A program made the position numbers and the translations under genes. This document shows, one piece after another, positions 2,909-25,578 of a stretch of DNA of 35,765 bases (position 1 is its first letter; each line of letters starts with the position of its first letter). Origin of the DNA: a virus. The notes below the pieces were generated by a model that saw only the letters and a program-made list of their open reading frames with translations, did not search any database and had not been told where the DNA came from. The stretch is taken from positions 1 through 35,765 of the IMG/VR virus record IMGVR_UViG_3300034064_000769. One strand, written 5' to 3'.

Positions 2909-5071
2909 ATGTCAAAACAAAAATTGTTATATATAGCATCCCATCTCTCAACTGGTGGGATGCCACAATACCTTTTAAAGCAAATTCAAATCTTTAAAGA
3001 TAAATTTGATATTGAGGTAGTTGAGGTAAACAATCACTCTGGTGATGCCTTTGTAGTACAAAAGAATCAAATAGCTGATTTATGTAAGTTGTACACATTG
3101 GGTGATAATAAATCCGAACTTGTGGATATTATTAAATCAACTCAACCAAACATAATTCATTTTACGGAAATCCCCGAACATTTTTTAGCTCACAATATAT
3201 TAGATACTATTTTTGACAATAGTAGAAATTACTATATTGTAGCATCTACACATGGTTCTCATACAAATCCAAATGAAATCAAATATCATCCAGATAGATA
3301 TGTTTTAGTATCTGAATGGAGTAGACGAAGATTTGAATTGGTGGGAGTAGATACACGTGTATGGGATTATCCAATAGAAACTATTGAGTATGATAAAAAC
3401 GAATTCAAAAACGAATTGGGATTTGAATCTGATTGGAAGCATGTTCTTATGGTTGGATTATTTACTGAAGGTAAGAATCAGGGTGAAATATTCAACGTAG
3501 CTAGATTATTAGAAAAATATAAAATTAAATTTCATTTTATCGGAAACCAAGCTATGAACTTTGAATCATATTGGGGACCAATAATGAAACACAAACCTGA
3601 TAATTGTATTGTATGGGGTGAACGTAGTGATGTAGATAAATTCTACAAAGCATCGGATATGTTTTACTTTAGTTCTAAATTGGAATTAAATCCATTATCT
3701 ATTAAAGAGGCATTGGGATATGGATTACCATCTATATTCAGAAAACTACACACATATTTGGATTCATATGATAATAATGAATTGGTTACTTATATCGATG
3801 ATAACCTAAATCAAACCAAACAAATTATATTAGAAAAACTACAACCTGAATTTAATGAAATTCCTGGTTGGTTTTCATATGAACATTTGTATAATGAAAT
3901 GGTTGAAAATGGAACCGATGGTGATGTATTTGTTGAGTTGGGTGCATGGTTGGGTAAATCAACCAATCATATGGCTACCTTAATTAAAGATTCTAATAAA
4001 GATATTAAATTTACAACTGTTGATACTTGGAAAGGTACCGATGGTGAAGAAATACATGATACAATAGTTGGTGGATTTGGTGGGGATATATTTTCAGAAT
4101 TTATGGAAAATACTATGTTAAGTAATAACTCAAAATTATTTAACGTAATAAAGGATACATCTGAAAACGCATCAAATCAATTTCAACATAACTCAATTGA
4201 TTTTATTATGTTGGATGCGGGTCATACTTATGATTCTTTAAAATCCGATTTAAACTTTTGGTATCATAAAGTAAAACCGGGTGGTGTTATTAGTGGAGAT
4301 GATTATGGTGGAAGTTTCTTTCCGGGGGTTACTAGAGCAGCTGATGAATTTTTTTATAATCAAGCAAAGCACGTATATCGTTCATTTGTTAGAAAAAAAC
4401 CAAAGATTCAAATTAAACATTTGATGACTAAGCCAAATGATTTGAGAGAACAAATTAGTTCAGAATCACTAAAACAATTGGAAAGTTATGGAATGGTGTA
4501 TCAACCAATTGTAAATACTCCATTTGATGGAACACCACCATCTGATTTTTGTAAAAGACCAAATCAGATATCGGATAAGCCGGGAAACTTTGGGAATGGA
4601 TTAGGTCCATTAACGGGTAGGCATTATGGGTGCTTTAACGCACATAGGGGAGCATTAGAAGCTATGGATGATGAATTTGATTATACATTAGTATTTGAAG
4701 CTGATGCGTTTATATTCACTGGATTAAAAGAATTTGTTGAAGCAGTTCATAAAGCATGTTTTATTTCTGAAAGAGATGATGTTTACTTTATTGGATTATC
4801 AAACAATAATTCCAGAAGTAAAGAATACATTGATGATTTATTCAGTAAAACTGCATCAAACCAAGATTTAGCACATGCGTATCTAATACCAAATAGAACA
4901 AAGAGTTGGTGGATTGATAGATTTAATGATACCCTATGGGAGGGATATGATTTATGGTTAACTGATGTGTTTAATAAAGAATCTAAATTACGATATACTA
5001 CAAATAAAATGTATGTTAAACAAGCAGATGGATTTTCTCTTATTGATAGAGAAGTAAAAAAATGGAATTAA
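2909..5071 (+). CDS. Trifunctional glycosyltransferase-methyltransferase-glycosyltransferase fusion
   Basis: A 720-residue protein with three apparent modules. Residues about 1-310 look like a GT-B (GT4-like) glycosyltransferase: an N-terminal Rossmann start with STGGMPQYLLKQ at 14-25, a mid-protein 'HVLMVGLFTEGKNQ' segment, and a donor-site region NPLSIKEALGYGLPSIF at about 260-276. Residues about 330-500 look like a class I SAM-dependent methyltransferase (Methyltransf_24-like): FVELGAWLGKST as the SAM loop and FIMLDAGHTYDSLKSDL near 433. Residues about 535-720 resemble GT25-type transferases: LTGRHYGCFNAHRGALEAM, then an acidic FEADAF motif with Glu597 and Asp599. It is the first gene of a tightly packed cassette and overlaps the next gene by 10 nt. 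It probably extends or methylates a glycan begun by the neighbouring heptosyltransferase; acceptor and sugars are unknown. Domain classes are supported by motifs; substrates are not. Confidence 0.75.
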   Translation: MSKQKLLYIASHLSTGGMPQYLLKQIQIFKDKFDIEVVEVNNHSGDAFVVQKNQIADLCKLYTLGDNKSELVDIIKSTQPNIIHFTEIPEHFLAHNILDTIFDNSRNYYIVASTHGSHTNPNEIKYHPDRYVLVSEWSRRRFELVGVDTRVWDYPIETIEYDKNEFKNELGFESDWKHVLMVGLFTEGKNQGEIFNVARLLEKYKIKFHFIGNQAMNFESYWGPIMKHKPDNCIVWGERSDVDKFYKASDMFYFSSKLELNPLSIKEALGYGLPSIFRKLHTYLDSYDNNELVTYIDDNLNQTKQIILEKLQPEFNEIPGWFSYEHLYNEMVENGTDGDVFVELGAWLGKSTNHMATLIKDSNKDIKFTTVDTWKGTDGEEIHDTIVGGFGGDIFSEFMENTMLSNNSKLFNVIKDTSENASNQFQHNSIDFIMLDAGHTYDSLKSDLNFWYHKVKPGGVISGDDYGGSFFPGVTRAADEFFYNQAKHVYRSFVRKKPKIQIKHLMTKPNDLREQISSESLKQLESYGMVYQPIVNTPFDGTPPSDFCKRPNQISDKPGNFGNGLGPLTGRHYGCFNAHRGALEAMDDEFDYTLVFEADAFIFTGLKEFVEAVHKACFISERDDVYFIGLSNNNSRSKEYIDDLFSKTASNQDLAHAYLIPNRTKSWWIDRFNDTLWEGYDLWLTDVFNKESKLRYTTNKMYVKQADGFSLIDREVKKWN

Positions 5072-6213
5072 TGATTTACGATAAATTAACTAAAAATTTA
5101 AATAACATTGTTGAAGTACGAAATAAAGTAAATTATCATTTCGTAAATGGTCCTTGGGCTGAAGTATTGGGAAACCAAACGGGTAAATACAATGTTAAGT
5201 TTATAAACAAACGTAATGGTAATGTTTTATTCACAACCGAATTATCAAACAATACTTGGGCTAAATGTAATATTGAGTATTTTATAGATTGGAGAATTGA
5301 AATATGGGAAGGTAATACTTTATTTTTTGAACATGATTATACCGCAACTAATAAGAGAGTTTATCTAGCACTATCATCAAAAGCATTGGGTGATACATTA
5401 GCATGGTTTCCATACTTTGACGAATTTCAGAAAGTACATAATTGTGAATTAATTGTATCTACATTTCATAACGAAATGTTAGAGTCACAATATCCAAATA
5501 TAGAATTTGTAAAACCAGGTCAAAGTGTTGAAAATTTATACGCAATGTATACTGTTGGTTTATTCTATAATGAAGATGGTAGTGTAAATAACAGAAAAAA
5601 TCCAAACGATTTTAAATCCCAAACAATGCAAAAAATGGGTTCTGATATATTGGGATTACCATATAAAGAAATAAAACCAAAGTTACCATCATCAGATATT
5701 GTTAAAGATGATAAGTTAATAACAATAGCAATACATGGAACTGCTCAATCTAAGTATTGGAATAACCCAAATGGTTGGCAAGAAGTAGTGAATTGGTTAA
5801 ATGATAAAGGTTATACAGTTAAACTATTATCACAAGAGAATAATGATTATATGGGTAATAAACACCCAACTGGAGTAGTCAAACACCCAGCCGGTTCTTT
5901 GGAAAAAGTAATGGATGAAATGAGAAAATCAAAAGCATTCATTGGTATTGGTAGTGGGTTAAGTTGGTTAAGTTGGGCATTGGGTACAAAGACGGTATTG
6001 ATTAGTGGATTCTCATATGATTGGGCAGAAATGCAAGATTGTGTTAGAATAACTTCACCTAAAGATAAATGTGGTGGATGCTTTAACCGATTAAAATTAG
6101 ATGCTGGTGATTGGAATTGGTGTCCAGACCATAAAGGTACGGATAGGCAATTTGAATGTACTAAAGCAATTACATCTCAGATGGTTATTAATGAATTAGA
6201 AAAGTTTCTATGA
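5062..6213 (+). CDS. Autotransporter-type protein O-heptosyltransferase (BAHT/TibC-like)
   Basis: A 383-residue protein matching the strand-loop-strand O-heptosyltransferases (TibC/Aah family, GT9-like), which transfer heptose from ADP-heptose to Ser/Thr of beta-helical adhesins. The N-terminal domain (about 20-95) carries the family pattern VNYHFVNGPWAEVLG and ends with YLALSSKALGDTLAWFPY, the start of the catalytic GT-B fold. The C-terminal domain has GIGSGLSWLSWALGTKTV. The C-terminus has Cys337-x2-Cys340-x13-Cys354-x11-Cys366, the four-Cys pattern that binds iron in TibC. Start ATG 5062 overlaps the previous gene by 10 nt; an in-frame ATG at 5071 is possible. The next two genes could supply the ADP-heptose donor, which strongly supports the assignment. 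The target is likely a phage fibre protein, which is inference. Confidence 0.85.
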   Translation: MELMIYDKLTKNLNNIVEVRNKVNYHFVNGPWAEVLGNQTGKYNVKFINKRNGNVLFTTELSNNTWAKCNIEYFIDWRIEIWEGNTLFFEHDYTATNKRVYLALSSKALGDTLAWFPYFDEFQKVHNCELIVSTFHNEMLESQYPNIEFVKPGQSVENLYAMYTVGLFYNEDGSVNNRKNPNDFKSQTMQKMGSDILGLPYKEIKPKLPSSDIVKDDKLITIAIHGTAQSKYWNNPNGWQEVVNWLNDKGYTVKLLSQENNDYMGNKHPTGVVKHPAGSLEKVMDEMRKSKAFIGIGSGLSWLSWALGTKTVLISGFSYDWAEMQDCVRITSPKDKCGGCFNRLKLDAGDWNWCPDHKGTDRQFECTKAITSQMVINELEKFL

Positions 6214-6599
6214 AAAAGGTTTGGTTAAATGGATGTTTTGATGTTTTACATCATGCGCATTTTAAGATGATTGAGTTCGCATCTGCCTTTGGTGATATTG
6301 TTATTATTGGAATTGATTCCGATAGGAGAGTAAAGGAATTAAAAGGAGAAGATAGACCGTTCCATACTGAAGAAGAACGAAAGTATAATTTGGAAAGAAT
6401 TAAAGGAGTTAGTAAAGTAGTTATATTTGATTCAGCTGAATTATTAGAAAATGTAATTAAAACATATAACCCTGATATATTTGTAATTGGGTCTGATTAT
6501 AAAAATAAACCAATAGTGGGAGAACAATACGCAAAATCAATTGTGTATTTTAATCGAATGGATGATTTCAGTACAACTAAAATATTAACAAATGAGTAA
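6210..6599 (+). CDS. hldE (C-terminal domain): D-glycero-beta-D-manno-heptose 1-phosphate adenylyltransferase (HldE C-domain-like)
   Basis: A 129-residue single-domain nucleotidyltransferase of the RfaE domain II / HldE C-domain type. It should convert heptose-1-phosphate and ATP to ADP-heptose. The opening WLNGCFDVLHHAHFKMIEFA contains the HxxH catalytic motif (His14, His17), with Ala in place of the usual Gly before the second His. VIIGIDSDRRVKELKGEDRP and a C-terminal DFSTTKIL complete the family pattern. It overlaps the heptosyltransferase by 4 nt (ATGA) and the kinase gene by 8 nt, so translation is probably coupled. In most bacteria this domain is fused to the kinase as HldE; here it is a separate gene encoded first. 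A glycerol-3-phosphate cytidylyltransferase-like enzyme is the main alternative, but the neighbours favour heptose. Confidence 0.8.
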   Translation: MKKVWLNGCFDVLHHAHFKMIEFASAFGDIVIIGIDSDRRVKELKGEDRPFHTEEERKYNLERIKGVSKVVIFDSAELLENVIKTYNPDIFVIGSDYKNKPIVGEQYAKSIVYFNRMDDFSTTKILTNE

Positions 6600-7344
6600 A
6601 GTATTAATTATAGGTGAGGGATGTTTAGATGAATTCGTTTATGGAAAAGCTACACGATTATCACCTGAAGGACCTGCACCTGTTTTTATAGAATCACATA
6701 CAATCACCAATGGTGGTATGGCTTATAATGTTAAAGAAAATTTAGAAGCATTGGGTTGTAAAACTGAATTGATTTGTAATACTCAATTGATTGTAAAAAA
6801 GAGATATGTTGAGGAAAGTTTTAATCATTTACTTTTACGAGTTGATATTGATGATGTAGTTCCGCCTATTGGTAATACACTTTCTGAAATAAATTTTTAT
6901 GATTTTGATATGATAGTCATATCGGATTATAACAAAGGATTTCTAAGTGATACTGATATTGCTAAAATAGCATTTAATCACCCTAATACAATTTGTGATA
7001 CTAAAAAAAAATTAGGAGAATGGTGCACTGATTTAAAGTTCATTAAATTAAACAGAACCGAATATCAAAATAATAAATCATTTATTGAAAATAATGAATG
7101 GATTTTAGAAAAACTAATAATCACATTAGATAAAGATGGATGTATGTATTTAAACAATATGTATCCAACTGATAAAGTTGAGATAATGGATATCTCAGGA
7201 GCAGGTGATACTTTTGTAGCAGGATTCACTACAAAGTATTTGGAAACAAATAATATTAATGAATCAATTATATTTGGAAATCGATGTTCATCTCAGGTTA
7301 TACAAAAACGTGGGGTAAGTGTAATTTCTGAAAATTTCAGTTAG
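6592..7344 (+). CDS. hldE (N-terminal domain): D-glycero-beta-D-manno-heptose 7-phosphate kinase (HldE N-domain-like, PfkB/ribokinase family)
   Basis: A 250-residue PfkB-family sugar kinase. The opening VLIIGEGCLDEFVYGKATRL followed by SPEGPAPVF is very close to the RfaE/HldE signature. GGMAYNVKENLEALG is the N-terminal PfkB motif, ISDYNKGFLS the middle motif, and SGAGDTFVAGF (GAGD at 203-206, catalytic base Asp206) the C-terminal PfkB signature. It is shorter than HldE kinase domains of about 310-320 residues, with material apparently missing after the first sheet region (about residues 60-68), so it is a compact version. It would phosphorylate heptose-7-phosphate at C1. The isomerase GmhA and phosphatase GmhB are not in this window, so sedoheptulose-derived substrate would have to come from host enzymes or phage genes elsewhere. 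Confidence 0.8.
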   Translation: MSKVLIIGEGCLDEFVYGKATRLSPEGPAPVFIESHTITNGGMAYNVKENLEALGCKTELICNTQLIVKKRYVEESFNHLLLRVDIDDVVPPIGNTLSEINFYDFDMIVISDYNKGFLSDTDIAKIAFNHPNTICDTKKKLGEWCTDLKFIKLNRTEYQNNKSFIENNEWILEKLIITLDKDGCMYLNNMYPTDKVEIMDISGAGDTFVAGFTTKYLETNNINESIIFGNRCSSQVIQKRGVSVISENFS

Positions 7345-7775: not shown

Positions 7776-10700
7776 ATGAGTGATTTATCAAAGTTTTTAG
7801 TAGAGAGTATATTATTAGGAGAAGCGAGCAGTGTAAAGGACTTAGTTGTTGTTTACTCTGGTCGCTTTCAACCTTTTCATAAAGGGCACTTCGCTACTTA
7901 CCAAACATTAGTAAAAAAGTTTGGAAAAAATAATGTTTATATCGGAACCTCTGATAAAACAGACAATCAAAAATCCCCATTCAATTTTAAGGAGAAAGTA
8001 AAGGTAATGACCACTATGTTTGGTATCCCATCAAACAAAATAGCTCAGGTCAAAAATCCCTATGCTCCAACTGAAATCCTAAGCAAATTCAATAAAGAAA
8101 CTACTGCATTTATAACTGTGGTTGGTGAGAAAGATTCAAGTCGTTTGGGTGGGAAGTATTTTGAAAAATACAAAGATAGTATTGAATTGGAAGGATATGC
8201 TGATAGGGGGTATGTTTTTATATCACCAGCACAACCAAATGCAATTAGTGGTACTGATGTTAGGATTGGTTTAAAAAAAGGTAGTACTGAGGATAAAAAA
8301 GATTTCTTTGTAAAGAAAGCTTATGGTAAATTCAATCAATCAATTTTTGATATGGTTGTTGATAAACTTTCCAAATTACCAGAATCAATTAATTTAGATG
8401 AAGGTATTACATTAGATGTTGAAATCGGAGATACCATTTTAATGGGTAGATTTAAAAATAAAAAAGTTATTGTAAAAACTATTGGAAAAGATGAACATGG
8501 AATGCCAACTATCAATGGTAAAAAGGTAGCAACTTTTAGAATGATAAAGGAAGGATATCAAGTAATCTTTGAAGATGAAAATGATGATTCCAAATACACT
8601 CATATTGGACATGGTGTGTATAAACAAAAAGGTAAAGAGGATGATGAATCTTCTCCATCTTTTTCAAAGAATGATGGTGGTAAGTATGTTAAAATAGATG
8701 GAGCTAGTGATACAAAATCGGAACCATCTAAAGGAACTAAAGTAGCCGGTTCGGATATGTTTAAACATGCACCTGATGTTAAGCAAAAAGAAAAACCCAA
8801 AACTGAAATACCAAATGTTGCATTAGATAATGTAACTAAGGTATTACCAAAAGCAGATTCAGATACATTTAGTTCAGAATCGGATATTCCTAAAATTTCA
8901 AATAAGCAACAAAGAGAAATTTCAATGCAGATTGATAAGTTGGTTCAACTAACAAATCAGGCAAAAGAAAATGGTGAAGCAGCTCCTAATTACAATTTAT
9001 GTAAAATAACTGTAGCTGGAACAAACTTATATTGTGCTGGTAATGCTGGAATTCCTCGTGAGGAAATGCCACAATTTAAAGGCAAACCAACCGAAGGTTC
9101 ACCTGCGGCAAGTATGGAAAAAGATATAAATGGTGAAGTTGATACGGAACCAATGTTTAGAGAACTATTGAAAAGAAAGGGTATTAAAACTATCCAAACT
9201 GAATTACCATCGGATTCTCTAAAAGCAACTCAATCTGAATTAGTTGGTGCAAAGGTAGCTGGTATGGCAAAGGCATTAGAGAATGACCCGAATCATCCAA
9301 AGATTACTGCTCCAATCTATGTAAGTAGAGATGGATATGTAGTGGATGGTCATCATCGTTGGGCAGCTGTAACAACAAACGCAATTAGAGATGGGAAACC
9401 TGCTAATATGAAAGTTATTGTTATTGATGCCGATATAAAGGATGTGATACCAATGTCAAATAAATTTGCAGAAGAAATTGGTGTTGCTGCTAAAAAAGCA
9501 GATACTGGTAAAAACGAATCGGTAATTAACGAAATCCCAATGGCTGATTTACAACAAATTGATAAATACGCTGATAGACAATTAAATCCAATTGATATCG
9601 TTCTTACTGATAAACATTTTTTCGATAGATTAAATGATACGAGAAATGGTAAGGAAATATCAGCAGCAGAACTAACTGGGTTCTTTAAAAGATTAGGTAG
9701 AAATAAAAAGAAATTTGTTGAATTCTTAACTCAATACAACCAAGTTGTAGCAAAGGATAATAGAACTAATATCAATATACCATTTATGCTTCAAGCTAAT
9801 AAAGCTATTGCAAAAACTATAATGAGAAAAGGTGAATTCAAAACAACAACACCTGAATATAAATTTGAATCAGTAATTGCTGAAACGTTAGACTCTCATT
9901 TGGGGAAAAAACATGGTGTGGAATTGGATGTATATGAATATCCAGAATACTTAGAAATTCACAGAATAGTTGTTCCAAAAGAAAAAAGAAGTGAGGGTAT
10001 TGGTACAAAAGTAATGAATGATATTATTACTTATGCAAAGAAAACCAAAAAAGATGTATTCTTAACTCCATCATCTGATTTTGGGGGTTCTAAGGGAAGA
10101 TTAATCCAATTCTATAAATCATTCGGATTTAAAGATAATAAAGGTGGAACTAGAGATTTTAGAAGCAAAGAATCAATGAAATTGACTGTTGAAACAATCA
10201 AACATATTGATGGTAAGTGGGTGGTATATCCAAAGGATGGTGGTGATAGATTAGGAACACATGATACTAAAGAGAAAGCACTTAAGCAATTAAGAGCAAT
10301 TGAAATAAGTAAAAATGAAAATATTAATTCAAAAAATCATAAATCGGATGGTACAATAGACCATAATTTTTTACAACATCACAAATCGGGAACATATACA
10401 CCTGATATGGGATATGGTGCAGAATTGGATACAATTGATTTTGATGATAGTAAAAAAACAGAACCTGGTCATCAAACAAATACAAAGGATACCGAAGATA
10501 AAGGATATGAAATGGTTAAAAAATCAGTAGAAGAAGCATACACTAAAGGTAATATCTTTGGTGGTAAACTTAAAATAGGTGGAGTAGCAGTTCCATTAGA
10601 AGTTGAATTGATTGGAGCTGATAATAAGAAAAAAGTATTCATTGTAAAGGTTGTTCATATTGATTCAAAGTATCATTCTAAATTACCATCAAATGGAATA

Positions 10701-12248
10701 TTAGAAATACCTGCAAGAATATTCAGAACACCGGGTGGTGGTTGGTATAAAGTAAAAACCAAATCAGCATTTGAAGGAATTGGAATGGGTTACCCAGACC
10801 AAGCATGGATTGATAAACATAAAGAAGTTCTTAAAAGATTAAGAAAGAAATTTAACGCTGAGAAATTACAATATAACGAACCATACGCATTGGGTGGTGG
10901 GATTAGTGAAAGAGTAGAAAATGGTAAAGTAATTTGTGATAATTGTGGTTGGAGTTGGAAAATTTCTGAAGGTGGAAGTGATACCTATATGTGTCACAAA
11001 TGTGGAACTGATAATAACCCAAACATAACTGAGGGGTTATTAACTGAAGGTGGTGCGTATGGACATATGAATCATCCATTTGATACTGAAATTAACTTAA
11101 CATTTGGACAACTTAAAGATATTGTGAATCGTGCATTAGAAGGTAAGTTGGAATTGACAAGAGAAAAAACTGATGGACAAGCATTAGCAATCAGTTGGGT
11201 GAATGGAAGATTAGTTGCTGCTAGAAACAAAGGACATCTAGCTAATAGAGGTGAGAAGGCATTGGATATAAATGGAGTAGCTACTAAGTTTGCCGGAAGA
11301 GGTGAGTTAGAAAAAGCATACAACTTTGCTATGAGTGATTTATCAAAAGCAATAAAATCACTTTCAGAAAAACAAAGAGAAAAAGTTTTTAAGAATGGTG
11401 CATGTTTTATGAATTTGGAGGTAATATATCCAACTTCGGTAAATGTAATTCCTTATGGACAAGCACTATTAGTATTTCATGGAACAATGGAATATAATGA
11501 AGCTGGTATAGCAATTGGTGAAAATCAAGAAGCAGCTAAAGTTTTGGCTGGTATGATTAAGCAAGTAAATCAAAACGTACAATCGGCTTATACAATACAA
11601 GGACCTCCAGTTGTTAAGTTACCACAATCAAAAAACTTAACTTCATTAAAAGGAAAATATAGTGGACAGATTACAAAACTACAATCTAAGTTTAAACTAT
11701 CCGATACGGATGGTATTGCTGATTATCATCAAGCATGGTGGACTGATTTTGTAACTAAGAAATCACCATCTCCGATTGATAATAGAACTCTAATGGGATT
11801 GGTTAAGAGATGGGCATTCTATGATAAATCATTCCGTTTAGACAATAAAAACATTACCGATGCTAAAGTATTAAGTTGGGCAACTGGTATTGATAAGAAT
11901 GACCACGCTAAGATAGCAAAGGATAATATTAGACCTTTTGAGGATATATTTTTGGGTGTTGGCTCTGAAGTACTTTCATTTATGAGTTCAGTACTTACAG
12001 CAAACCCTGATTCTGCGGTTAGAGCTATGAAGGATAGATTAGATAAAACTATATCAGATGTTAAGACTGGTGGTGATGAAAAGAAGATAGCAAAACTTAA
12101 AATGGAATTACAAAGATTAAACGCTATTGGTGGAAAAGATAAAATAGTTCCAAACGAAGGTATCGTATTTGTGTACAATGGAAATACAATGAAACTAACA
12201 GGTACATTTGCACCATTAAATCAAATTCTTGGATTATTTTACGAATAG
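7776..12248 (+). CDS. Giant multidomain protein with capsid-targeting-like N-terminus; nucleotidyltransferase, ParB-like, GNAT and KxDG ligase-type domains
   Basis: A 1490-residue protein. Residues 1-16 (MSDLSKFLVESILLGE, then Ala17) look like a T4-type capsid-targeting peptide ending at a prohead-protease site. Apparent modules: NadM-like nucleotidyltransferase about 25-200 (GRFQPFHKGH at 29-38, ISGTDVR); small beta domain 210-260; disordered Ser/Lys/Asp-rich linker; ParB-like fold about 480-585 (VDGHHRW at 523-529); helical domain 587-700; GNAT acetyltransferase about 704-795 (RSEGIGTKVM); DUF2188-like segment about 804-843; zinc ribbon with Cys1054, 1057, 1073 and 1076; and a C-terminal nucleotidyltransferase/ligase-type domain with EKTDGQ (Lys1131, Asp1133, Gly1134) and MNLEVIYP (Glu1215). 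Sites of the form [LIV]xE then a new domain occur at E209, E586, E703, E920 and E1091. It has its own candidate late promoter. The best reading is a polyprotein packaged in the head; separate enzymes or adaptors would then be released. Individual activities are inferred from motifs. Confidence 0.7.
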   Translation: MSDLSKFLVESILLGEASSVKDLVVVYSGRFQPFHKGHFATYQTLVKKFGKNNVYIGTSDKTDNQKSPFNFKEKVKVMTTMFGIPSNKIAQVKNPYAPTEILSKFNKETTAFITVVGEKDSSRLGGKYFEKYKDSIELEGYADRGYVFISPAQPNAISGTDVRIGLKKGSTEDKKDFFVKKAYGKFNQSIFDMVVDKLSKLPESINLDEGITLDVEIGDTILMGRFKNKKVIVKTIGKDEHGMPTINGKKVATFRMIKEGYQVIFEDENDDSKYTHIGHGVYKQKGKEDDESSPSFSKNDGGKYVKIDGASDTKSEPSKGTKVAGSDMFKHAPDVKQKEKPKTEIPNVALDNVTKVLPKADSDTFSSESDIPKISNKQQREISMQIDKLVQLTNQAKENGEAAPNYNLCKITVAGTNLYCAGNAGIPREEMPQFKGKPTEGSPAASMEKDINGEVDTEPMFRELLKRKGIKTIQTELPSDSLKATQSELVGAKVAGMAKALENDPNHPKITAPIYVSRDGYVVDGHHRWAAVTTNAIRDGKPANMKVIVIDADIKDVIPMSNKFAEEIGVAAKKADTGKNESVINEIPMADLQQIDKYADRQLNPIDIVLTDKHFFDRLNDTRNGKEISAAELTGFFKRLGRNKKKFVEFLTQYNQVVAKDNRTNINIPFMLQANKAIAKTIMRKGEFKTTTPEYKFESVIAETLDSHLGKKHGVELDVYEYPEYLEIHRIVVPKEKRSEGIGTKVMNDIITYAKKTKKDVFLTPSSDFGGSKGRLIQFYKSFGFKDNKGGTRDFRSKESMKLTVETIKHIDGKWVVYPKDGGDRLGTHDTKEKALKQLRAIEISKNENINSKNHKSDGTIDHNFLQHHKSGTYTPDMGYGAELDTIDFDDSKKTEPGHQTNTKDTEDKGYEMVKKSVEEAYTKGNIFGGKLKIGGVAVPLEVELIGADNKKKVFIVKVVHIDSKYHSKLPSNGILEIPARIFRTPGGGWYKVKTKSAFEGIGMGYPDQAWIDKHKEVLKRLRKKFNAEKLQYNEPYALGGGISERVENGKVICDNCGWSWKISEGGSDTYMCHKCGTDNNPNITEGLLTEGGAYGHMNHPFDTEINLTFGQLKDIVNRALEGKLELTREKTDGQALAISWVNGRLVAARNKGHLANRGEKALDINGVATKFAGRGELEKAYNFAMSDLSKAIKSLSEKQREKVFKNGACFMNLEVIYPTSVNVIPYGQALLVFHGTMEYNEAGIAIGENQEAAKVLAGMIKQVNQNVQSAYTIQGPPVVKLPQSKNLTSLKGKYSGQITKLQSKFKLSDTDGIADYHQAWWTDFVTKKSPSPIDNRTLMGLVKRWAFYDKSFRLDNKNITDAKVLSWATGIDKNDHAKIAKDNIRPFEDIFLGVGSEVLSFMSSVLTANPDSAVRAMKDRLDKTISDVKTGGDEKKIAKLKMELQRLNAIGGKDKIVPNEGIVFVYNGNTMKLTGTFAPLNQILGLFYE

Positions 12249-18922: not shown

Positions 18923-20026
18923 ATGAATATTACTAGAGCAAAACTAAAAGAAACACTTCGTACAATCGTTAATGAGGAATCGGAGTATCAATCATTTTTC
19001 AAAGCCGCATTAGAAAAAGCTGGAAAATCTATCCCATCTATGAGTGATGAGGAAAAGAAAGCATTTTTTGATAAAATCGATGCCACATGGGATGGTAGAG
19101 GTGAAAAGAATGAAGAATTAGTTGGTGGTCAAAAGAAATTAGATGTTGATAAAGATGGTGATATCGGTAGTGATGATTTAGCAGATTTAAGAGCTGGTAA
19201 AAAAGTAGATGAAGCATCATATCCAACTGATTTAAAAATCGGTTCTGTAATATTAGGACAAGGATTCACCCGATTAAAGGGAATAGATGGTGGGAAGTAT
19301 TATAAAGTTGTAGATATGGATAGTATTTCAGCAACATTCGTTCCATCTGATAAAAATGGTAATACAAAGGGTTCAAAAAAAGTAAGACATCGTTTAGGTG
19401 ATATTGATGGTGGTATTAAAACTGCTAAAAGAGGTGATGAAAACGGAATCGTTGTAATCAAAGAATCAGTTAACGAAGCAATTGGTAATGATAAATCAAT
19501 GTTAGCATTGGTAGATATATTATCCAACTCAATGGAATATTATGAGGATGATAGTGATTTTTTACAAGCAGTTAGAGGTGGACAAGGATGGTCTGGTATT
19601 GCAGGTTTTAAAAATAGTAGTTTAATTCCGGTATTTAAATCTATATATAAAAAGTATTGGACAGTATCTCCACAAAATAGAACTAATTGGATTACAAAAA
19701 ATTGGATTAATTGGTTAAAGCCATTTGGATTGGAAGAGAATGTAAATTCTGAAACTGATACATTTAATGAAGCAGCAGACGTTAAAAAAAGATTTATGTT
19801 TGATTTCTATACGGATTCCAATCAAAGAAATACCGAAAGAGAAACAAACTTTTTGGCTACTACATTGGAAAGCGCAATTAAAGCAGCTGAACATATTTGT
19901 AAAGTAACTGGATATGCGTATGTTGAAATATACTACAAAGATTTGTTTTTAGGTAGTATGAAAAAACAAAATGGTTTTAAATTTGTTGAGGGTAGGGGCT
20001 ATCCTAAATTCAAATCAATAAATTAA
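18923..20026 (+). CDS. Multidomain internal head protein candidate with several protease-like sites
   Basis: A 367-residue protein. The N-terminal peptide MNITRAKLKETLRTIVNE ends at Glu18. Further [LIVF]xE, then Ala sites occur between modules: VDE97 before ASYP, VNE185 before AIGN, FNE283 before AADV. Between 19 and 97 there is a helical domain ending in an EF-hand-like calcium loop (DVDKDGDIGSDDLADLRAG). Residues 98-185 form a small beta domain (LKIGSVILGQGFTRLKGIDG). Residues 186-283 are helical with several Trp. Residues 284-367 are a compact alpha/beta domain (YAYVEIYYKDLFLGSMKKQ). The arrangement suggests a precursor cut into about four pieces by the gene 21 protease. I do not recognise the individual domains apart from the calcium-type loop. 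Confidence 0.65.
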   Translation: MNITRAKLKETLRTIVNEESEYQSFFKAALEKAGKSIPSMSDEEKKAFFDKIDATWDGRGEKNEELVGGQKKLDVDKDGDIGSDDLADLRAGKKVDEASYPTDLKIGSVILGQGFTRLKGIDGGKYYKVVDMDSISATFVPSDKNGNTKGSKKVRHRLGDIDGGIKTAKRGDENGIVVIKESVNEAIGNDKSMLALVDILSNSMEYYEDDSDFLQAVRGGQGWSGIAGFKNSSLIPVFKSIYKKYWTVSPQNRTNWITKNWINWLKPFGLEENVNSETDTFNEAADVKKRFMFDFYTDSNQRNTERETNFLATTLESAIKAAEHICKVTGYAYVEIYYKDLFLGSMKKQNGFKFVEGRGYPKFKSIN

Positions 20027-20051: not shown

Positions 20052-20639
20052 ATGAAAAGCTTAATAATAGAAACGAATTTGTTTAAGGGATTAGTTAACG
20101 AAGATGCCTCTGGTAGAACTATCGTTAAAGGAATCCTACAAAGAGCTGGGGCGGAAAACCAAAATGGTAGAGTATATCCAATGCCAATCTTACAAAGAGA
20201 AGCAAAGAGATATGAAACACTTATCAAAGAAAGACGAGCATTAGGTGAATTAGACCACCCTGATTCGTCTGTAATCAACTTGAAGAACGTATCTCATAAT
20301 GTGAGAGAAATTCATTGGGAAGGTAATGATTTATGTGGTACAGTTGAAATCTTACCAACACCATCTGGAAACATATTAAAAGAATTGTTAAGAGCTGGAA
20401 TCCTATTAGGTATCTCATCAAGAGGTATGGGTTCTACTAGACAATTAGAAGGAAATAAAGTAGAAGTTCAAGAGGACTTTGAATTAATCGGTTGGGATTT
20501 TGTTTCCAATCCATCTACGCATGGTGCATTTATGACACCTATGAACGAATCGGTAGTTAAATCTATTGGTACTGATGTTTGTGGTGAATTTTGTAAAGCA
20601 CAAGATTTAATGAGAGAAATCATAACAGGATTAATATAA
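20052..20639 (+). CDS. gene 21: Prohead maturation protease (gp21-like)
   Basis: A 195-residue serine protease of the T4 gp21/assemblin-like group that cleaves scaffold, capsid and internal proteins during head maturation. The catalytic His is in GELDHPDSS (His69) and the catalytic Ser in GILLGISSRGMG (Ser122 or Ser123), with RTIVKGILQRAGAENQNGRV as the conserved N-terminal strand-loop. GWDFVSNPSTHGAFM is the typical C-terminal core motif. The N-terminus itself ends a short helix at LVNE17, then Asp18, a possible self-cleavage site. It is slightly smaller than T4 gp21 (212 residues). Its stop overlaps the next start by 1 nt. Location between portal and scaffold matches T4. Confidence 0.93.
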   Translation: MKSLIIETNLFKGLVNEDASGRTIVKGILQRAGAENQNGRVYPMPILQREAKRYETLIKERRALGELDHPDSSVINLKNVSHNVREIHWEGNDLCGTVEILPTPSGNILKELLRAGILLGISSRGMGSTRQLEGNKVEVQEDFELIGWDFVSNPSTHGAFMTPMNESVVKSIGTDVCGEFCKAQDLMREIITGLI

Positions 20640-21189: not shown

Positions 21190-22326
21190 ATGAAAGAGCA
21201 ATTAAGAAAAATAGTAAGAGAAACTATGAAAGAATCAGTTCTTTCAGAAATAGAATCAGTAAACGAAGGAAGATACGATGCTGATTTAGATAAAATTGAA
21301 GCAGCAGTTAAAAACGCATCATCATTTATGAACGTTGGTTCTGAATTAAAGAAAATTGGTGTAAAGTATGATTTCTCAACTTCAATGATACCGATGTATA
21401 GAATTAAAGTATCTGGAAACACTATTGCAATTGTAAATAAGAAATATGCAGCTGGTGCAGAAAGAGAAGTTAAAGATATTGCAATTGGATTAATGGAGAA
21501 TATTATTAAAGAATCGTTATCTCCTGAAGTTGCTAAACATATGGGTAGTATTCATAAGGGATTTAAAATGGTAGAAGATGATGGTGCAATGGTTTATGAT
21601 TCACCAAACAATGCTAAAAAAGCAGCAGATTTTTTAAATTCAAAAAAAATAGCAGCATCATTTGATGGTAAATATGTATATTTAGAATCAGTAGTAACTG
21701 AGGCATTCAAACATATCATTCACGTTGATACACCAACTCAAGTAGTTTCTAAACCAGTAGCAGCTCAAATAATGGCATTGGCTAAAAAAGGTATTCGTTC
21801 AAAAGAAATTGGATTGGAGATGGGATTTACTGGTAACGCTAAGTTAGCAGCTGATACATTCCAAAAAGTTAAAAGTAGAATATACTTTGAGCTTGATAAA
21901 AGAGAATCAGTAGTAACTGAAGGTGCTGGTAAAGAAGCAATGGGAATTGCAGCATTAACTGCTACAAGAGGTGATGCGGTTCAAGCCTTTATTGATAAAC
22001 ATAATTTGGATGGTGTAAAACTTTTCAAAAGTATTAAATCAGCAAACTTGCAAGGTAAAATGAATTTTGTTAGTGCATTGGTTGGACACGATGGTAATCC
22101 AAATCAAAGACTTACAATCAAACTTCACCAAAAGAATGAATCGGTAAATGAAGAAGAAATTAGATGGAGCGCAGTTGAAAATGCAATCATTAACTTTTTA
22201 AAAATGAATACAAAGATTTTAGATAAGAGAGTTAAAGATAAAGATACTGATGGTGTTAAGGGGGGATTGCAATCAATCATTGATGGTTTAACCAACGCAC
22301 AAAGAAGTTTAAAATTAAAAAAATAA
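21190..22326 (+). CDS. Multidomain internal head protein candidate with repeated ESV-x-x-E linkers
   Basis: A 378-residue protein. The N-terminal peptide (1-26) is a basic amphipathic helix ending IESVNE26, then Gly27. Three more near-identical linkers separate domains: LESVVTE171 then Ala, RESVVTE244 then Gly, NESVNE321 then Glu. Domains: 27-171 (alpha/beta, perhaps two copies of a small fold; compare VNKKYAAGAEREVKDIAIG and YDSPNNAKKAADFLNSKKIA); 172-244 with a helix-turn-helix look (IMALAKKGIRSKEIGLEMGF); 245-320; and a helical tail 322-378. The linkers match the expected prohead-protease specificity, so this is probably a packaged precursor cut into several fragments. The HTH-like part could bind DNA in the head or after injection; this is inference. 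Confidence 0.65.
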   Translation: MKEQLRKIVRETMKESVLSEIESVNEGRYDADLDKIEAAVKNASSFMNVGSELKKIGVKYDFSTSMIPMYRIKVSGNTIAIVNKKYAAGAEREVKDIAIGLMENIIKESLSPEVAKHMGSIHKGFKMVEDDGAMVYDSPNNAKKAADFLNSKKIAASFDGKYVYLESVVTEAFKHIIHVDTPTQVVSKPVAAQIMALAKKGIRSKEIGLEMGFTGNAKLAADTFQKVKSRIYFELDKRESVVTEGAGKEAMGIAALTATRGDAVQAFIDKHNLDGVKLFKSIKSANLQGKMNFVSALVGHDGNPNQRLTIKLHQKNESVNEEEIRWSAVENAIINFLKMNTKILDKRVKDKDTDGVKGGLQSIIDGLTNAQRSLKLKK

Positions 22327-22349: not shown

Positions 22350-22637
22350 ATGTATATCGATTCTAACAAACATGCGTATGGGCTAGGTGGGGCTCAAATT
22401 ATAAGTGGGTCTAGGCAATTAACAGTTAGTAATGTATATCGTTATAAGACGGTAACAGCTACAGTAACTGACCTTAAATTTAATGCTTCACAAATATCTG
22501 GTTCATTTGGTTTAAATACAATACCAGCTGGAGTAGATGTATTCGGTAGTATAACTGAGATTACACAATCATCTGGTGTAGGTATTGCATATTATGGTAT
22601 ACCTGAATTTAATATAAATACTGGGCAATCGTATTAA
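22350..22637 (+). CDS. Small beta-rich hypothetical protein before the scaffold gene
   Basis: A 95-residue protein rich in Ser, Thr, Gly, Val and Ile with alternating patterns, so likely beta-structured (RQLTVSNVYRYKTVTATVTD). No signal peptide, no Cys. It ends just before a terminator at 22640-22664, making it the last gene of the prohead cluster transcript. Its composition is like that of phage surface or fibre subunits and unlike the helical core proteins around it; a head-decoration role is possible but unsupported by any motif I know. Confidence 0.6.
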   Translation: MYIDSNKHAYGLGGAQIISGSRQLTVSNVYRYKTVTATVTDLKFNASQISGSFGLNTIPAGVDVFGSITEITQSSGVGIAYYGIPEFNINTGQSY

Positions 22638-22639
22638 TA

Positions 22640-22664
22640 AAAGGTGGTTTATCCATCTTTTTTT
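22640..22664 (+). terminator. Rho-independent terminator
   Basis: An 8-bp stem AAAGGTGG / CCATCTTT (one G-U pair) with loop TTTAT, followed by a T run. It lies just after the stop at 22637 and before the scaffold/capsid promoter. Confidence 0.6.
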
Positions 22665-22724
22665 ATGTATTTTAAAAAAAACTAAAGAAAATTATACATT
22701 TTTTATCGTTTTCTAAAAAATATG

Positions 22725-22738
22725 TATATTTATCTTTG
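22725..22738 (+). promoter_or_regulatory. Promoter for scaffold and capsid genes (TATCTTTG overlapping late-type box)
   Basis: TATCTTTG at 22731-22738 matches the Bacteroidota -7 box exactly. It overlaps TATATTTATC (22725-22734), a near copy of the recurring late-type box. No good TTG -33 element is seen at the expected spacing, so the phage box may do part of the work. Transcription would begin near 22745 and give a leader of about 130 nt. Confidence 0.5.
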
Positions 22739-22743
22739 TTAAT

Positions 22744-22840
22744 AACCCATTCTTATGGGTTTATTGGTTAATGAATACTCACCTATATGTGTAGTTACCG
22801 AACAACCAATTCAAAACCAACTACATTGAGGTTCCTCAAA
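22744..22840 (+). promoter_or_regulatory. Structured 5' leader of the scaffold/capsid transcript
   Basis: The gene-free stretch before 22877 contains three inverted repeats: AACCCA/TGGGTT with a 6-nt loop (22744-22761), TGTAGTT (22790-22796) with AACTACA (22819-22825), and TTGAGG/CCTCAA (22826-22839) with only 2 nt between arms. The first would sit at the extreme 5' end of the mRNA and could protect it from decay. Function is inferred; no known riboswitch fold was recognised. Confidence 0.4.
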
Positions 22841-22876
22841 TAACTTCAGAAAATTTTAAAAAACACGGTAAAAGAA

Positions 22877-23899
22877 ATGGCAAATTCAAAATTGTTAAAA
22901 GAAGCAATTGCTGATGCCAAGGCTGTAAGGGAAACCGCTATCGCTAACGCTAAAATCGCATTAGAGGAAGCTTTTACTCCACGTTTACAATCTATCCTAT
23001 CAAGAAAGCTACAAGCTGAAATGGAAGGTGAAGAGGAAGAAACTATGGAAGAAGAGATGGACTCAATGGATTTAGACATGGGTGATGACGAAGAACAAAC
23101 TGCTATGGTAAGCAATGAAGAAGAAGCTACTGATGTTGTTGAAGAAGAGGAAACAGAAATGGACTCTGAAGAAGCAATGGAAGAAGCTGAAGGGTATGAT
23201 GACCCGACTAACGCTGATGACGCATCAATGTCTGAAGAAGATGAGATGGGTGAAGATGAGTTAGATTTAGAAGAAATCATCAGAGAACTTGAAATGGGTA
23301 TGGACTCTGAAGAAGAGGAAGTAACTGAAGAAGAAGAAATGGAAATTGCTCCCGAAGAAGCTCCTGTAGCTGAAGAGGAAGAAATGGAAATGGGTTCTGA
23401 AGAAGAAGCTCCTGTATCTGAAGAAGAAGATGAAATCGACTTAGAGGAAATCCTTAGAGAAATGGGTTACGGGGATGATGAGGAAGTAACTGAAGGTGAA
23501 GAAGAAGTTGTTGATAACTCTGCAGAATTAGAAGCAGAATTAGAAGAAGCTTATTCAGTAATCAAAAAATTACAATCTACAATCAACGAAGTAAACTTAT
23601 TGAACGCAAAATTACTTTACGCTAACAAATTGTTTAGAGGTTATAATTTAACTAACGAGCAAAAAGGTAAAGTTGTAGAAAATCTTGACAGAACAACTTC
23701 TGTTAGAGAAGTAAAATTAGTTTTCGCAACGTTATCAGAATCAATGAACTTTACAGGTACTGAAAGAAAAGCTAAAAGAGCAATCGCTGAAAGCGTAGCA
23801 TCTAAGCCAACTCGTTCAACTGCACCTAAGAAAGAAATCATTTCTGAGAACACAAATCTAATGGCTGCAAGATTCAAAGAACTTGCAAACATTAAATAA
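22877..23899 (+). CDS. gene 22: Prohead scaffold/core protein (gp22-like)
   Basis: A 340-residue scaffold protein directly before the capsid gene, as in T4. The N-terminal part is a charged helix (MANSKLLKEAIADAKAVRET) with a candidate protease site at ALEE31, then Ala32 (AFTPRLQSIL). Residues about 48-215 are extremely acidic, with runs of Glu and Met. The C-terminal part (about 217-340) is a coiled coil followed by LTNEQKGKVVENLDRTTSVR, typical of gp22-type scaffolds. T4 gp22 is 269 residues; the extra length is the acidic tract. It should form the prohead core and be degraded by the gene 21 protease. Codons are more C-ending than in most of the window. Confidence 0.85.
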   Translation: MANSKLLKEAIADAKAVRETAIANAKIALEEAFTPRLQSILSRKLQAEMEGEEEETMEEEMDSMDLDMGDDEEQTAMVSNEEEATDVVEEEETEMDSEEAMEEAEGYDDPTNADDASMSEEDEMGEDELDLEEIIRELEMGMDSEEEEVTEEEEMEIAPEEAPVAEEEEMEMGSEEEAPVSEEEDEIDLEEILREMGYGDDEEVTEGEEEVVDNSAELEAELEEAYSVIKKLQSTINEVNLLNAKLLYANKLFRGYNLTNEQKGKVVENLDRTTSVREVKLVFATLSESMNFTGTERKAKRAIAESVASKPTRSTAPKKEIISENTNLMAARFKELANIK

Positions 23900-23937: not shown

Positions 23938-25578
23938 ATGGCAAATTTCGATTTATCTAAGTTAATGGAAGGAAAGAACCCACAATCGGTTATGTTGAAC
24001 GAAACTCGTCAACTTAAATCAAAATGGGAAAAAACTGGACTTCTTGAAGGCTTAAAGACAAAAGACCAAAGTGCAATGGCTGTACTTTTGGAAAACCAAG
24101 CAAAACAATTGCTTGATGAAGCAACACAAACTGGTGTTGGTGCAAACTCTGAAGAGTGGAGCGGTGTAGCTTTACCTTTAGTAAGAAGAATCTTCGGTGA
24201 GATTGCTTCTAAAGAATTCGTTAGTGTACAACCTATGAACTTACCTTCTGGACTTGTATTCTATTTGGATTTCAAATATGGTACTGCTCAAGGTGGTAAC
24301 CCAACTTTCTCTGGAAAATCACTTTTTGGTGGTAACGGACAAGATTCTGCTGCTGGTGCTGGTTTCGGTACTACTGCAGTAGCTGAAAATGGTTTATATG
24401 GTGAAGGTAGATTCGGATACACAGTAAATGATGTAACTGCATCTTTCGCTCACTCTGCAATCACTTATACTTCAGCATCTTGGGCTGATGTAGGATTTAC
24501 ATCTGAACTTTCTGCTTCTGTAGCAGCTGGACAAGTGCATAAAGCAACTTTCACAGCTCCAACAACAGCTGATTTAGATGGTGTACGTTCATTTAACGTA
24601 GCAAGTGGTTCACTTACTAACTTAAATCAATTCCACAAAGTATCTGGAGCTAACTTAGTAATGTTCGTATCAGCATCTGCTGGTTTACAAACTGCTAAAA
24701 CTGCTGCACAAACTGTAGTATTAACTTACTCAGTTGTACCAAATGATTACTCTAGAGGTGATTTTGAAGATGGTAAAAACTCTGGTAAAAGAGCAGATAC
24801 TGAAGGAACAATCGGAACTGATATCGATATTCCTGAGGTTGACTTAGAATTGAAATCAGAGGCTATCGTTGCTAAGACTCGTAAGTTGAAAGCAGTATGG
24901 ACTCCTGAATTGGCGCAAGATTTGAACGCTTACCACTCAATTGACGCTGAAGCGGAATTAACTTCTATGTTATCTGATTATATCTCTTTAGAGATTGACT
25001 TAGAAATCTTAGATATGTTAAAATCAAACGCTTTAACTACTGAGTATTGGTCAGCAACTATTGGTGAAGAATACAATGCAGCATCAGGCGTATGGTCTGG
25101 AGCAGCAACTGGAATGGCTTACCAAAAGAATACTTGGTTCCAAACTTTAGGTACTAAATTAAACAAAGTATCTAACAAAATTCACCAATTGACATTAAGA
25201 GGTGGAGCTAACTTCGTTGTTGCTTCTCCTGATGTATGTACTATCTTAGAATCGATTCCTGCATTTACAGTGAACGCTGATAAGGATTCTGCATCTTTCG
25301 CAGCTGGTGTAACGCAAGTTGGTGCTATCGCTAATAGATACACTGTTTACAAAAACCCTTACATGACTTCAAACGAAATCTTGTTAGGATTCAGAGGTTC
25401 AAACTTCTTGGAAACTGGAGCTGTTTACGCACCATACGTTCCATTAATTATGACTCCTTTGGTGTATGACCCAACAAACTTTACTCCTCGTAGAGGTGTA
25501 ATGACAAGATACGCTAAGAAAATGGTTCGTCCTGAGTACTACGGTCGTATTTTTGTTAAAGATTTAGCTTCTATTTAA
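23938..25578 (+). CDS. gene 23: Major capsid protein (gp23-like)
   Basis: A 546-residue HK97-fold capsid protein of the T4 gp23 family. The N-terminal 61 residues form the expected propeptide, ending QLLDE61, then Ala62; T4 gp23 is cut after Glu65 in a similar LTE-A context. The mature part starts with NSEEWSGVALPLVRRIFGEI, a highly conserved gp23 block, followed by VSVQPMNLPSGLVFYLDFKYG. The C-terminal region includes NKIHQLTLRGGANFVVASPD and GVMTRYAKKMVRPEYYGRIF. An inserted Ala/Ser/Thr-rich section (about 135-275) fits the variable surface domain. The gene uses many C-ending codons (AAC, TTC, TAC) and CGT, fitting very high expression. It is followed by a strong terminator. Confidence 0.96.
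   Translation: MANFDLSKLMEGKNPQSVMLNETRQLKSKWEKTGLLEGLKTKDQSAMAVLLENQAKQLLDEATQTGVGANSEEWSGVALPLVRRIFGEIASKEFVSVQPMNLPSGLVFYLDFKYGTAQGGNPTFSGKSLFGGNGQDSAAGAGFGTTAVAENGLYGEGRFGYTVNDVTASFAHSAITYTSASWADVGFTSELSASVAAGQVHKATFTAPTTADLDGVRSFNVASGSLTNLNQFHKVSGANLVMFVSASAGLQTAKTAAQTVVLTYSVVPNDYSRGDFEDGKNSGKRADTEGTIGTDIDIPEVDLELKSEAIVAKTRKLKAVWTPELAQDLNAYHSIDAEAELTSMLSDYISLEIDLEILDMLKSNALTTEYWSATIGEEYNAASGVWSGAATGMAYQKNTWFQTLGTKLNKVSNKIHQLTLRGGANFVVASPDVCTILESIPAFTVNADKDSASFAAGVTQVGAIANRYTVYKNPYMTSNEILLGFRGSNFLETGAVYAPYVPLIMTPLVYDPTNFTPRRGVMTRYAKKMVRPEYYGRIFVKDLASI

Follow-up and report, generated by a model that had tools for sequence, protein, structure and literature searches.

A modular polyprotein gene in a T4-type head cluster, predicted to encode head cargo cut by the prohead protease

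Why should a phage encode, in its head gene cluster, a single chain of 1490 amino acids that strings several enzyme-like domains together behind a short leader? The question is raised by the gene of polyprotein P0001 (7776..12248, ATG start confirmed), found in positions 1 to 35,765 of IMG/VR virus record IMGVR_UViG_3300034064_000769. These 35,765 bases are the window analyzed here; coordinates are window positions, and P0001, its modules and the other head-cluster genes given with coordinates lie on the + strand. The cluster is of the T4 type, with terminase, portal, S77 prohead protease and major capsid protein (the first two named from matches to annotated immuto genes), and 7.8 kb separate P0001 from the protease gene, which follows it on the same strand. 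We consider it quite likely that P0001 is a head-cargo polyprotein, similar to the internal proteins of T4 and processed in trans by the prohead protease.

In the proposed mechanism, the N-terminal leader would act like the capsid-targeting sequence of a T4 internal protein and draw the whole chain into the prohead core. There, the co-encoded S77 prohead protease would cleave behind [LIV]xE, both at the leader and between modules, leaving free inside the head an enzyme resembling nicotinamide mononucleotide (NMN) adenylyltransferases, the small module M2, a ParB-like domain, module M3, a GNAT domain, a zinc ribbon and a ligase-like enzyme, all of which would be ejected along with the DNA. Many proteins would thus be delivered at equal dose by a single tag and gene. 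Modules would be gained, lost and reordered through recombination at the cut sites, and elsewhere would be encoded as separate genes with leaders of their own. We infer the packaging, cutting and ejection of the modules from sequence patterns.

Scans of IMG/VR recovered at least 585 confirmed relatives of the ligase end of P0001 and at least 567 of its nucleotidyltransferase end, and 80 of each were used. Filtering of open reading frames (ORFs) left 118 with both ends, 117 after the choice of start, 60 that were distinct, 52 that were non-redundant and a strict set of 34; thirteen ORFs were identical to P0001, some being the same contig from both scans, and one copy (L089) was kept among the 52. 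These 52 relatives span 763-1968 amino acids. The nucleotidyltransferase comes first and the ligase-like domain last in every one of them, and in between, modules appear, vanish and swap order. When the 52 were cut at supported sites, 348 segments resulted, which fell into 49 clusters, with up to ten segments per protein and with the nucleotidyltransferase itself split into two segments in three proteins; because this segmentation is based on the sites, it serves only to describe architecture. Module M2 occurs in 42 of the 52, next to five kinds of left and 12 kinds of right neighbor, and M3 in 26, with 12 kinds on each side.

Homology between these relatives tends to stop on the predicted cleavage motif. 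Taking the ends of BLAST alignments as the only break positions, 37.5% of 757 breaks fell at most 4 residues from [LIVM]xE, compared with 12.2% at shifted positions (z 20.5); the corresponding values for [LIVM]xD were 13.7% and 13.2% (z 0.5), and [LIVM]xK likewise showed little. The peak is sharp: alignments ended exactly at E (distance 0) 108 times versus 15 times for D, and started at the hydrophobic residue two before E 100 times versus 3 times for D. Counted as distinct contexts, which in related proteins do not amount to independent evolutionary events, [LIVM]xE lies at 613 of 3547 breaks, 3.65-fold over expected, and E ranks first of the 20 residues. The strict set of 34 proteins gives 225 of 1503 breaks on the motif (3.19-fold), and spacings of 0, 2, 3, 4 or 5 residues yield 1.30-1.82. 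As a control, the other ORFs of the same loci, called mechanically on both strands at a length of at least 250 amino acids (370 ORFs, 241 with breaks, together a tenth of the family's break count), have the motif at 22 of 350 breaks (0.92-fold, rank 5). At near-break sites, P2 is often K or N, and P1' is often G, S, D, I or M.

Within P0001 itself, breaks gather at E203 (8) and E209 (11; the pair spans 8382..8402), E259 (26), E266 (8), E586 (9; 9531..9533), E920 (9; 10533..10535) and E1086 (26), with weak support for E703 and E1045 (4 each). E16 does not figure in this scoring, from which breaks near the N-terminus were excluded. The original prediction for this DNA had proposed cuts at E209, E586, E703, E920 and E1091; E209, E586 and E920 are supported, E703 is weak, and E1091 has no breaks because the surrounding stretch sits in a block common to all relatives, whose alignments start at E1086. 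The last junction accordingly falls five residues before the one proposed, and E203, E259 and E266 are additional sites.

The leader of P0001 (residues 1-16; 7776..7823) is capsid-targeting-like and reads MSDLSKFLVESILLGE/A, ending LGE/A (a slash marks a predicted cut). That it is a 16-residue, T4-like targeting leader had been proposed, and the family agrees: [LIVM]xE stands ahead of the nucleotidyltransferase core in 51 of the 52 relatives, with its E at residue 15 (33 proteins) or 16 (18 proteins). The predicted cutter, a T4-type prohead protease (peptidase S77; 20052..20639; PF03420 2e-25, phrog_207 1.7e-50), is encoded in 20 of 22 contigs with a relative, some of these contigs being near-copies, as judged by PF03420; the other two contigs end about 4 kb downstream of the ligase domain. 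In seven contigs, the ligase domain is followed on the same strand, after about 6.5 to 9.3 kb, by the protease match.

The T4-type major capsid protein (23938..25578; phrog_138 5.5e-72) has a site of the same form, [LIV]59-x-E61/A62, in which both [LIV]59 and E61 are present in 65 of 65 sequences, followed by A in 60, S in 3 and T in 2. It has no internal breaks, and its site mostly has D and A at P2 and P1', unlike the polyprotein sites near breaks. Its best-scoring matches among phage records are to an uncultured huge phage (53%), Flavobacterium phage immuto (52%), Microcystis phage Mel-JY01 (51%) and Rhodothermus phage RM378 (39%). In T4, gp21 cleaves behind L/I-X-E, IPIII needs no more than its first 10 residues for targeting, and a 65-residue propeptide is removed from the N-terminus of gp23 (PMC9026906).

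Two more head-cluster proteins, encoded beside the protease, follow the same rule. In the family of the second modular protein, with ESVxxE-type sites (21190..22326), [LIVM]xE is at 307 of 1372 breaks (2.94-fold, rank 1 of 20), and in that of the third (18923..20026) at 200 of 1256 (2.38-fold, rank 3 behind residues with 2 and 12 hits). These two families have 42 ORFs in common and are therefore not two independent replications; neither has any in common with the P0001 family.

Modules that occur as small separate ORFs form a line of evidence distinct from the break counts. In 19 of 25 distinct small ORFs, [LIVMF]xE lies in a 14-residue stretch that spans the module start (from 8 residues ahead of it to 6 beyond), as it does in 21.9% of random 14-residue windows (binomial 1.3e-8, several of the leaders being related). 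Among the 16 with the module starting at most 50 residues from the first Met, 13 have the site, as do six of the nine with the module farther in, one of the nine (L412) having unknown residues; L149, also among the 25, is a short version of the start of the polyprotein itself. The ligase-like domain occurs alone at four IMG/VR loci, with leaders such as MIRLRKILNE/ILLKE/GGA, and in huge phage LR756500, with leader MKFLKSYEEFLNE/NLILE/GGS. The polyprotein is split into two genes in L148 and into three consecutive genes in L094, where the second starts MIKLTDLLSE/ and the third MIRLKKLLSE/VLLNE/.

The cultivated Flavobacterium phage vB_FspM_immuto (host Flavobacterium sp. LMO8) encodes module M23 as a gene of 104 amino acids (59% identity, 1.1e-39) that starts MRLLELLRE/A, and M3 within a gene of 252 amino acids that starts MKKSQLRQIIKE/A, the M3 of P0001 matching a stretch in immuto at 53.6% identity. 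Mel-JY01 has a form of 639 amino acids with the two constant domains only. A 66-residue open frame in another phage matches P0001 residues 1044-1085 (the zinc ribbon), and in LR756508 a DGHHRW stretch (ParB-like by eye) precedes the nucleotidyltransferase. Second polyprotein genes of other phages also hold family modules: one such polyprotein, of 1410 amino acids (L191:6332-10564; leader MNMNLSELINE/), matches P0001 residues 322-617, the ParB-like module. BLAST found no P0001-family modules elsewhere among the ORFs of the window.

We regard as strongly supported, as a prediction from sequence comparisons, that the leader and the [LI]xE motifs between modules would serve the prohead protease in cutting the chain into separate cargo enzymes. 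The cut-site idea of the original prediction is backed by the leader (51/52), the breaks on [LIVM]xE (3.65-fold), the recurrence of the rule in the two other head-cluster families, the capsid-protein site, the S77 protease in 20 of 22 contigs and the sites in 19 of 25 small ORFs, with the changes to individual sites noted above.

The alternative that survives best, itself unlikely, is that P0001 is a core or scaffold-type protein of the prohead, packed and multiply cut, whose pieces mostly exit the head before DNA packaging and have no role in the host. The position of the gene in the head cluster would suit such a protein, as would the multi-site cutting of the T4 core proteins gp22, gp67 and gp68 (PMC9026906). 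It fits poorly, however, with the size of the pieces, many of which correspond to domains (the ten commonest segment clusters have median sizes of 45 to 403 amino acids), with the invariance of catalytic residues in the nucleotidyltransferase and the ligase-like domain across 38 and 49 sequences, and with the occurrence of modules as small ORFs with leader and site, like T4 internal proteins.

We give less credence still to P0001 being an ordinary cytoplasmic or late multidomain protein of the polyvalent type that acts uncut, with [LIVM]xE as a recurrent linker in domain shuffling. Neither the exact one-residue spacing with E at P1, nor the use of one motif by both the capsid-protein site and the leader, nor the lack of a motif effect in other ORFs of the loci would be expected of such a linker, even if modules are common to other multidomain proteins, as are residues 617-801 (M3 and GNAT), which recur in a DarB-like protein of Serratia phage Parlo. 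Finally, it is highly improbable that the break signal is an artifact, produced by local alignments that end on matched residues or by linkers rich in glutamate: E is in general mildly enriched at breaks, but [LIVM]xD and [LIVM]xK show little, other spacings reach 1.30-1.82 rather than 3.19, the 350 breaks in other ORFs show no effect, and the small separate ORFs are evidence of another kind.

Several observations weigh against P0001 being a head-cargo polyprotein. [LIVM]xE is a short motif, and nine copies inside conserved modules (E73, E118, E463, E566, E649, E721, E977, E1198 and E1249) have no breaks, while frequent breaks in P0001 fall on no site (ends at 714, 718 and 344, and a start at 168). 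The mild enrichment of E at breaks extends to [LIVM]E (18.1% vs 12.8%, z 4.8), [LIVM]xxE (21.9% vs 15.7%, z 4.6) and [^LIVM]xE (45.2% vs 35.3%, z 6.0). A single relative of the 52 (L029) starts without the leader, and six of the 25 small-ORF modules lack the site, including the M3 of Melnitz phage. In T4, core proteins that are cut at several sites mostly exit the head in pieces (PMC9026906). Among the 321 ORFs of a sister 270-kb contig (G001), a stricter leader pattern matched 14 versus 4.8 by first Met and 18 versus 9.0 over all candidate Mets, and a loose genome-wide pattern, too permissive, matched 61; because the patterns are permissive or only modestly in excess, we claim no count of cargo genes. 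The predicted full-length fold of a shorter relative (L096; 1047 amino acids, 19 sequences) has a mean predicted local distance difference test score (pLDDT) of 50.9, and so says nothing firm on whether the sites fall in linkers. A fragment alignment for folding P0001 was set aside, MAFFT having placed just 26 or 29 of 116 fragments correctly.

What would such a polyprotein carry? Behind the leader, nucleotidyltransferase M0 (residues 17-203; 7824..8384), always first, is of the HIGH type and NMN-adenylyltransferase-like (cytidylyltransferase-like fold PF01467, 4.4e-8), and M2 (residues 210-259; 8403..8552) ends at predicted cut site E259. The ParB-like domain (residues 407-573; 8994..9494) matches phrog_2859 (3.5e-23), which carries no function label, and the ParB-like phrog_2159 (1.7e-3). 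M3 (residues 587-703; 9534..9884) ends at predicted cut site E703 and is followed by a GNAT acetyltransferase-like domain (residues 704-802; 9885..10181) that matches phrog_10691 (2.8e-19) and PF13508 (4.8e-5), the latter at 24.1 bits, under the 27-bit cut-off. A small DUF2188 / PDC-S16-like domain (residues 805-862; 10188..10361) has weak support, and a weak match to PDC-S16 (4.3e-4) is the only one that PADLOC gave. Predicted cut sites E1045, E1086 and E1091 (10908..11048) surround a four-cysteine zinc ribbon (residues 1046-1086) with weak Pfam matches only, and the ligase-like (covalent nucleotidyltransferase) domain, module M1 (residues 1092-1490; 11049..12248), is always last. No peptidase domain was matched in P0001 with Pfam, PHROGs or NCBIfam, and one of 38 relatives matched a metallo-protease PHROG.

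The 1490-residue multidomain ORF and several of its modules are thus confirmed as predicted, to differing degrees. The NadM-like nucleotidyltransferase fold stands by PF01467, with scores for the NMN adenylyltransferase family far under cut-off; the ParB-like fold is supported by phrog_2159 and the GNAT domain by the sub-cut-off PF13508; the zinc ribbon has weak hidden Markov model (HMM) matches; and the KxDG ligase holds by its residues, with no HMM match.

In the nucleotidyltransferase, H34, G36 and H37 (HxGH) and S156-G-T158-x-V-R161 (SGTxVR) are invariant in 38 sequences, a subset of the 52 relatives from which some close relatives were removed by hand and the others by a limit on residues. 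HxGH and SxTxxR are motifs of NadM-type NMN adenylyltransferases, and the closest curated models are NMN adenylyltransferases, below cut-off (31.3 bits vs 127; 27.9 vs 181.2). The C-terminal KxDG domain has no HMM match in Pfam, PHROGs or NCBIfam. Across 49 sequences with identities as low as 41%, its K40-T-D42-G43, R59, E124, E370-G371 and K382 do not vary (T41 being nearly invariant), and we take these residues, assigned by eye, to be ligase motifs I, Ia, III, IV and V.

The ligase-like domain has an AlphaFold2 model with a pLDDT of 84. Searched against solved structures with Foldseek, the top five rows are RNA ligases (best E 0.054, not significant); against viral models, RNA-ligase rows appear from E 0.019, and 10 matches at E of at most 0.001, apparently relatives, are cytidyltransferase-like, uncharacterized or unnamed, one being named for a SET domain. 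By VIA, where a Z under 8 may reflect a common arrangement, the best match is T4 RNA ligase 2 (Rnl2; Z 5.7, root-mean-square deviation 4.0, 113 aligned residues); of the 15 rows with Z of at least 5.0, RNA or DNA ligases account for 12 and RNA methyltransferases for three. With invariant motifs but weak fold scores, membership in the covalent nucleotidyltransferase / RNA ligase superfamily is likely by motif and unproven by fold. The domain shares KxDG motif I, other ligase-type residues and a weak core similarity with T4 Rnl1 and Rnl2 and fungal Trl1, and differs from them in a long helical insertion before the E-G motif, with structural scores under the reliable range. Ribosomal protein eS6, proposed as a solved relative by a sequence-only search (best E 0.0099), is a match that we do not believe. 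Distant full-length homologues of the domain (25-28%) occur in two 400-kb rumen contigs filed as Firmicutes and Erysipelotrichaceae (L413 and L414), which are possibly huge phages; the L413 copy has a leader ending ILE/GG.

From the conserved catalytic residues, a role in NAD or RNA-end metabolism, as counter-defense, is plausible. A pair of enzymes that makes NAD+ from NMN and seals RNA, delivered before transcription, would fit defenses based on NAD+ depletion or tRNA cleavage. It is more tentative, and we would lean toward doubt, that the two constant domains are the first enzymes at work in the infected cell, restoring NAD+ and mending cleaved RNA. NadV, the NMN-making partner, is said to accompany NadM in phages (PMC9503650); it was found in two of six large contigs, and not in the contig that encodes a protein identical to P0001.

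How does this arrangement compare with known systems? Like the T4 internal proteins and Alt, P0001 has a short leader ending [LI]xE, a co-encoded S77 protease and a T4-type head cluster, and its cargo is proposed to act early in the host. In T4, each cargo protein has its own gene and terminal cuts (PMC9026906), whereas the P0001 family has up to ten segments behind one leader, swapped at predicted cut sites. The nearest multidomain class is that of the polyvalent proteins of phages and conjugative elements, mosaic chains with 2-15 conflict-type domains for which injection was proposed and which were likened to viral polyproteins (PMC5512222). P0001 shares with them several conflict-type domains (nucleotidyltransferase, ParB-like, GNAT and ligase-like, the GNAT and ParB-like matches being weak or function-less). 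However, release of polyvalent proteins is attributed to peptidase domains that some of them contain (PMC5512222), and in P0001 the cuts are predicted in trans at [LIV]xE.

In SPN3US and phiKZ, head and ejected proteins are cut after a short E-ending motif by a gp21-related protease (PMC10052503, PMC9026906). Nine SPN3US proteins have 14 sites, of which 13 serve to remove N-terminal propeptides and one to remove the C-terminal propeptide of the protease itself; the excerpted text describes no separation of enzyme modules, unlike the proposal for P0001 (PMC10052503). The DarA and Hdf proteins of phage P1 are ejected anti-restriction proteins, DarA being cut at its N-terminus by the P1 protease, and the P1 internal proteins are encoded by separate genes with N-terminal processing, unlike the fused P0001 (PMC12810830). 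Reviews of jumbo phages and of NAD treat injected multidomain proteins, in the excerpts without a cut-site layout (PMC7824862, PMC9503650). Within the open-licence literature, as far as its excerpts go, we found no description of head cargo made as a polyprotein and divided into separate enzymes by the prohead protease; virion-proteome papers for phiM12 and immuto were not among the matches listed, and no paper was found for Mel-JY01. P0001 would work like the T4 internal proteins with their capsid-targeting sequences, and differs in having many domains behind one leader.

With somewhat less assurance than for P0001 itself, we think it probable that a T4-related lineage remade the internal-protein system as a plug-in platform for cargo. 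In it, enzyme cassettes flanked by prohead-protease sites would move, by recombination at those sites, between polyproteins with one head tag and separate tagged genes, and would be freed in the head for injection. Such a platform would correspond, in phages, to the polyproteins of RNA viruses, with the difference that cutting takes place in trans while the capsid matures. If this is true, the cassettes amount to a natural catalogue of what phages find worth delivering before gene expression, most of them without known function, and the short leader plus [LIV]xE is a sequence signature for finding such cargo in environmental phages. It would also offer a simple evolutionary route to injected effector sets and make T4-type head targeting testable in cultivated Flavobacterium phages.

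Some further features of these genomes were observed. An ESVxxE-type linker motif occurs at least twice in only three of the 321 ORFs of sister contig G001: P0001 (4), the window's 21190 gene (6) and an ORF of 257 amino acids at 22356-23129 (2). The sister contig also has two runs of three adjoining genes with leader-like starts (L187:7191-9210 and L188:8533-10330), either MI[SKQR]L..[LI][LI] followed shortly by xE, or MSSSKLKTILSE; one of these genes encodes an AAA_33/zeta-toxin-like kinase (4.1e-10), and the genes of both runs are candidates for further head cargo. Elsewhere in the window, positions 28327-30987 encode a protein of 886 amino acids with a long N/I/F-rich repeat (e.g., YNNIINNDF) and no Pfam match up to E 0.01. 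A tail-fibre-like protein with a gp53-like C-terminus (31-2103) contains two Hint/intein-type regions in tandem (PT-HINT 1.9e-7, residues 126-260; Intein_splicing 1.8e-10, residues 372-412). Within the late region, positions 2909-7344 hold a sugar cluster with a glycosyltransferase-methyltransferase fusion, a heptosyltransferase-like GT9 and adjoining cytidylyltransferase and PfkB kinase genes, a pair that resembles a split HldE, the enzyme of lipopolysaccharide heptose activation.

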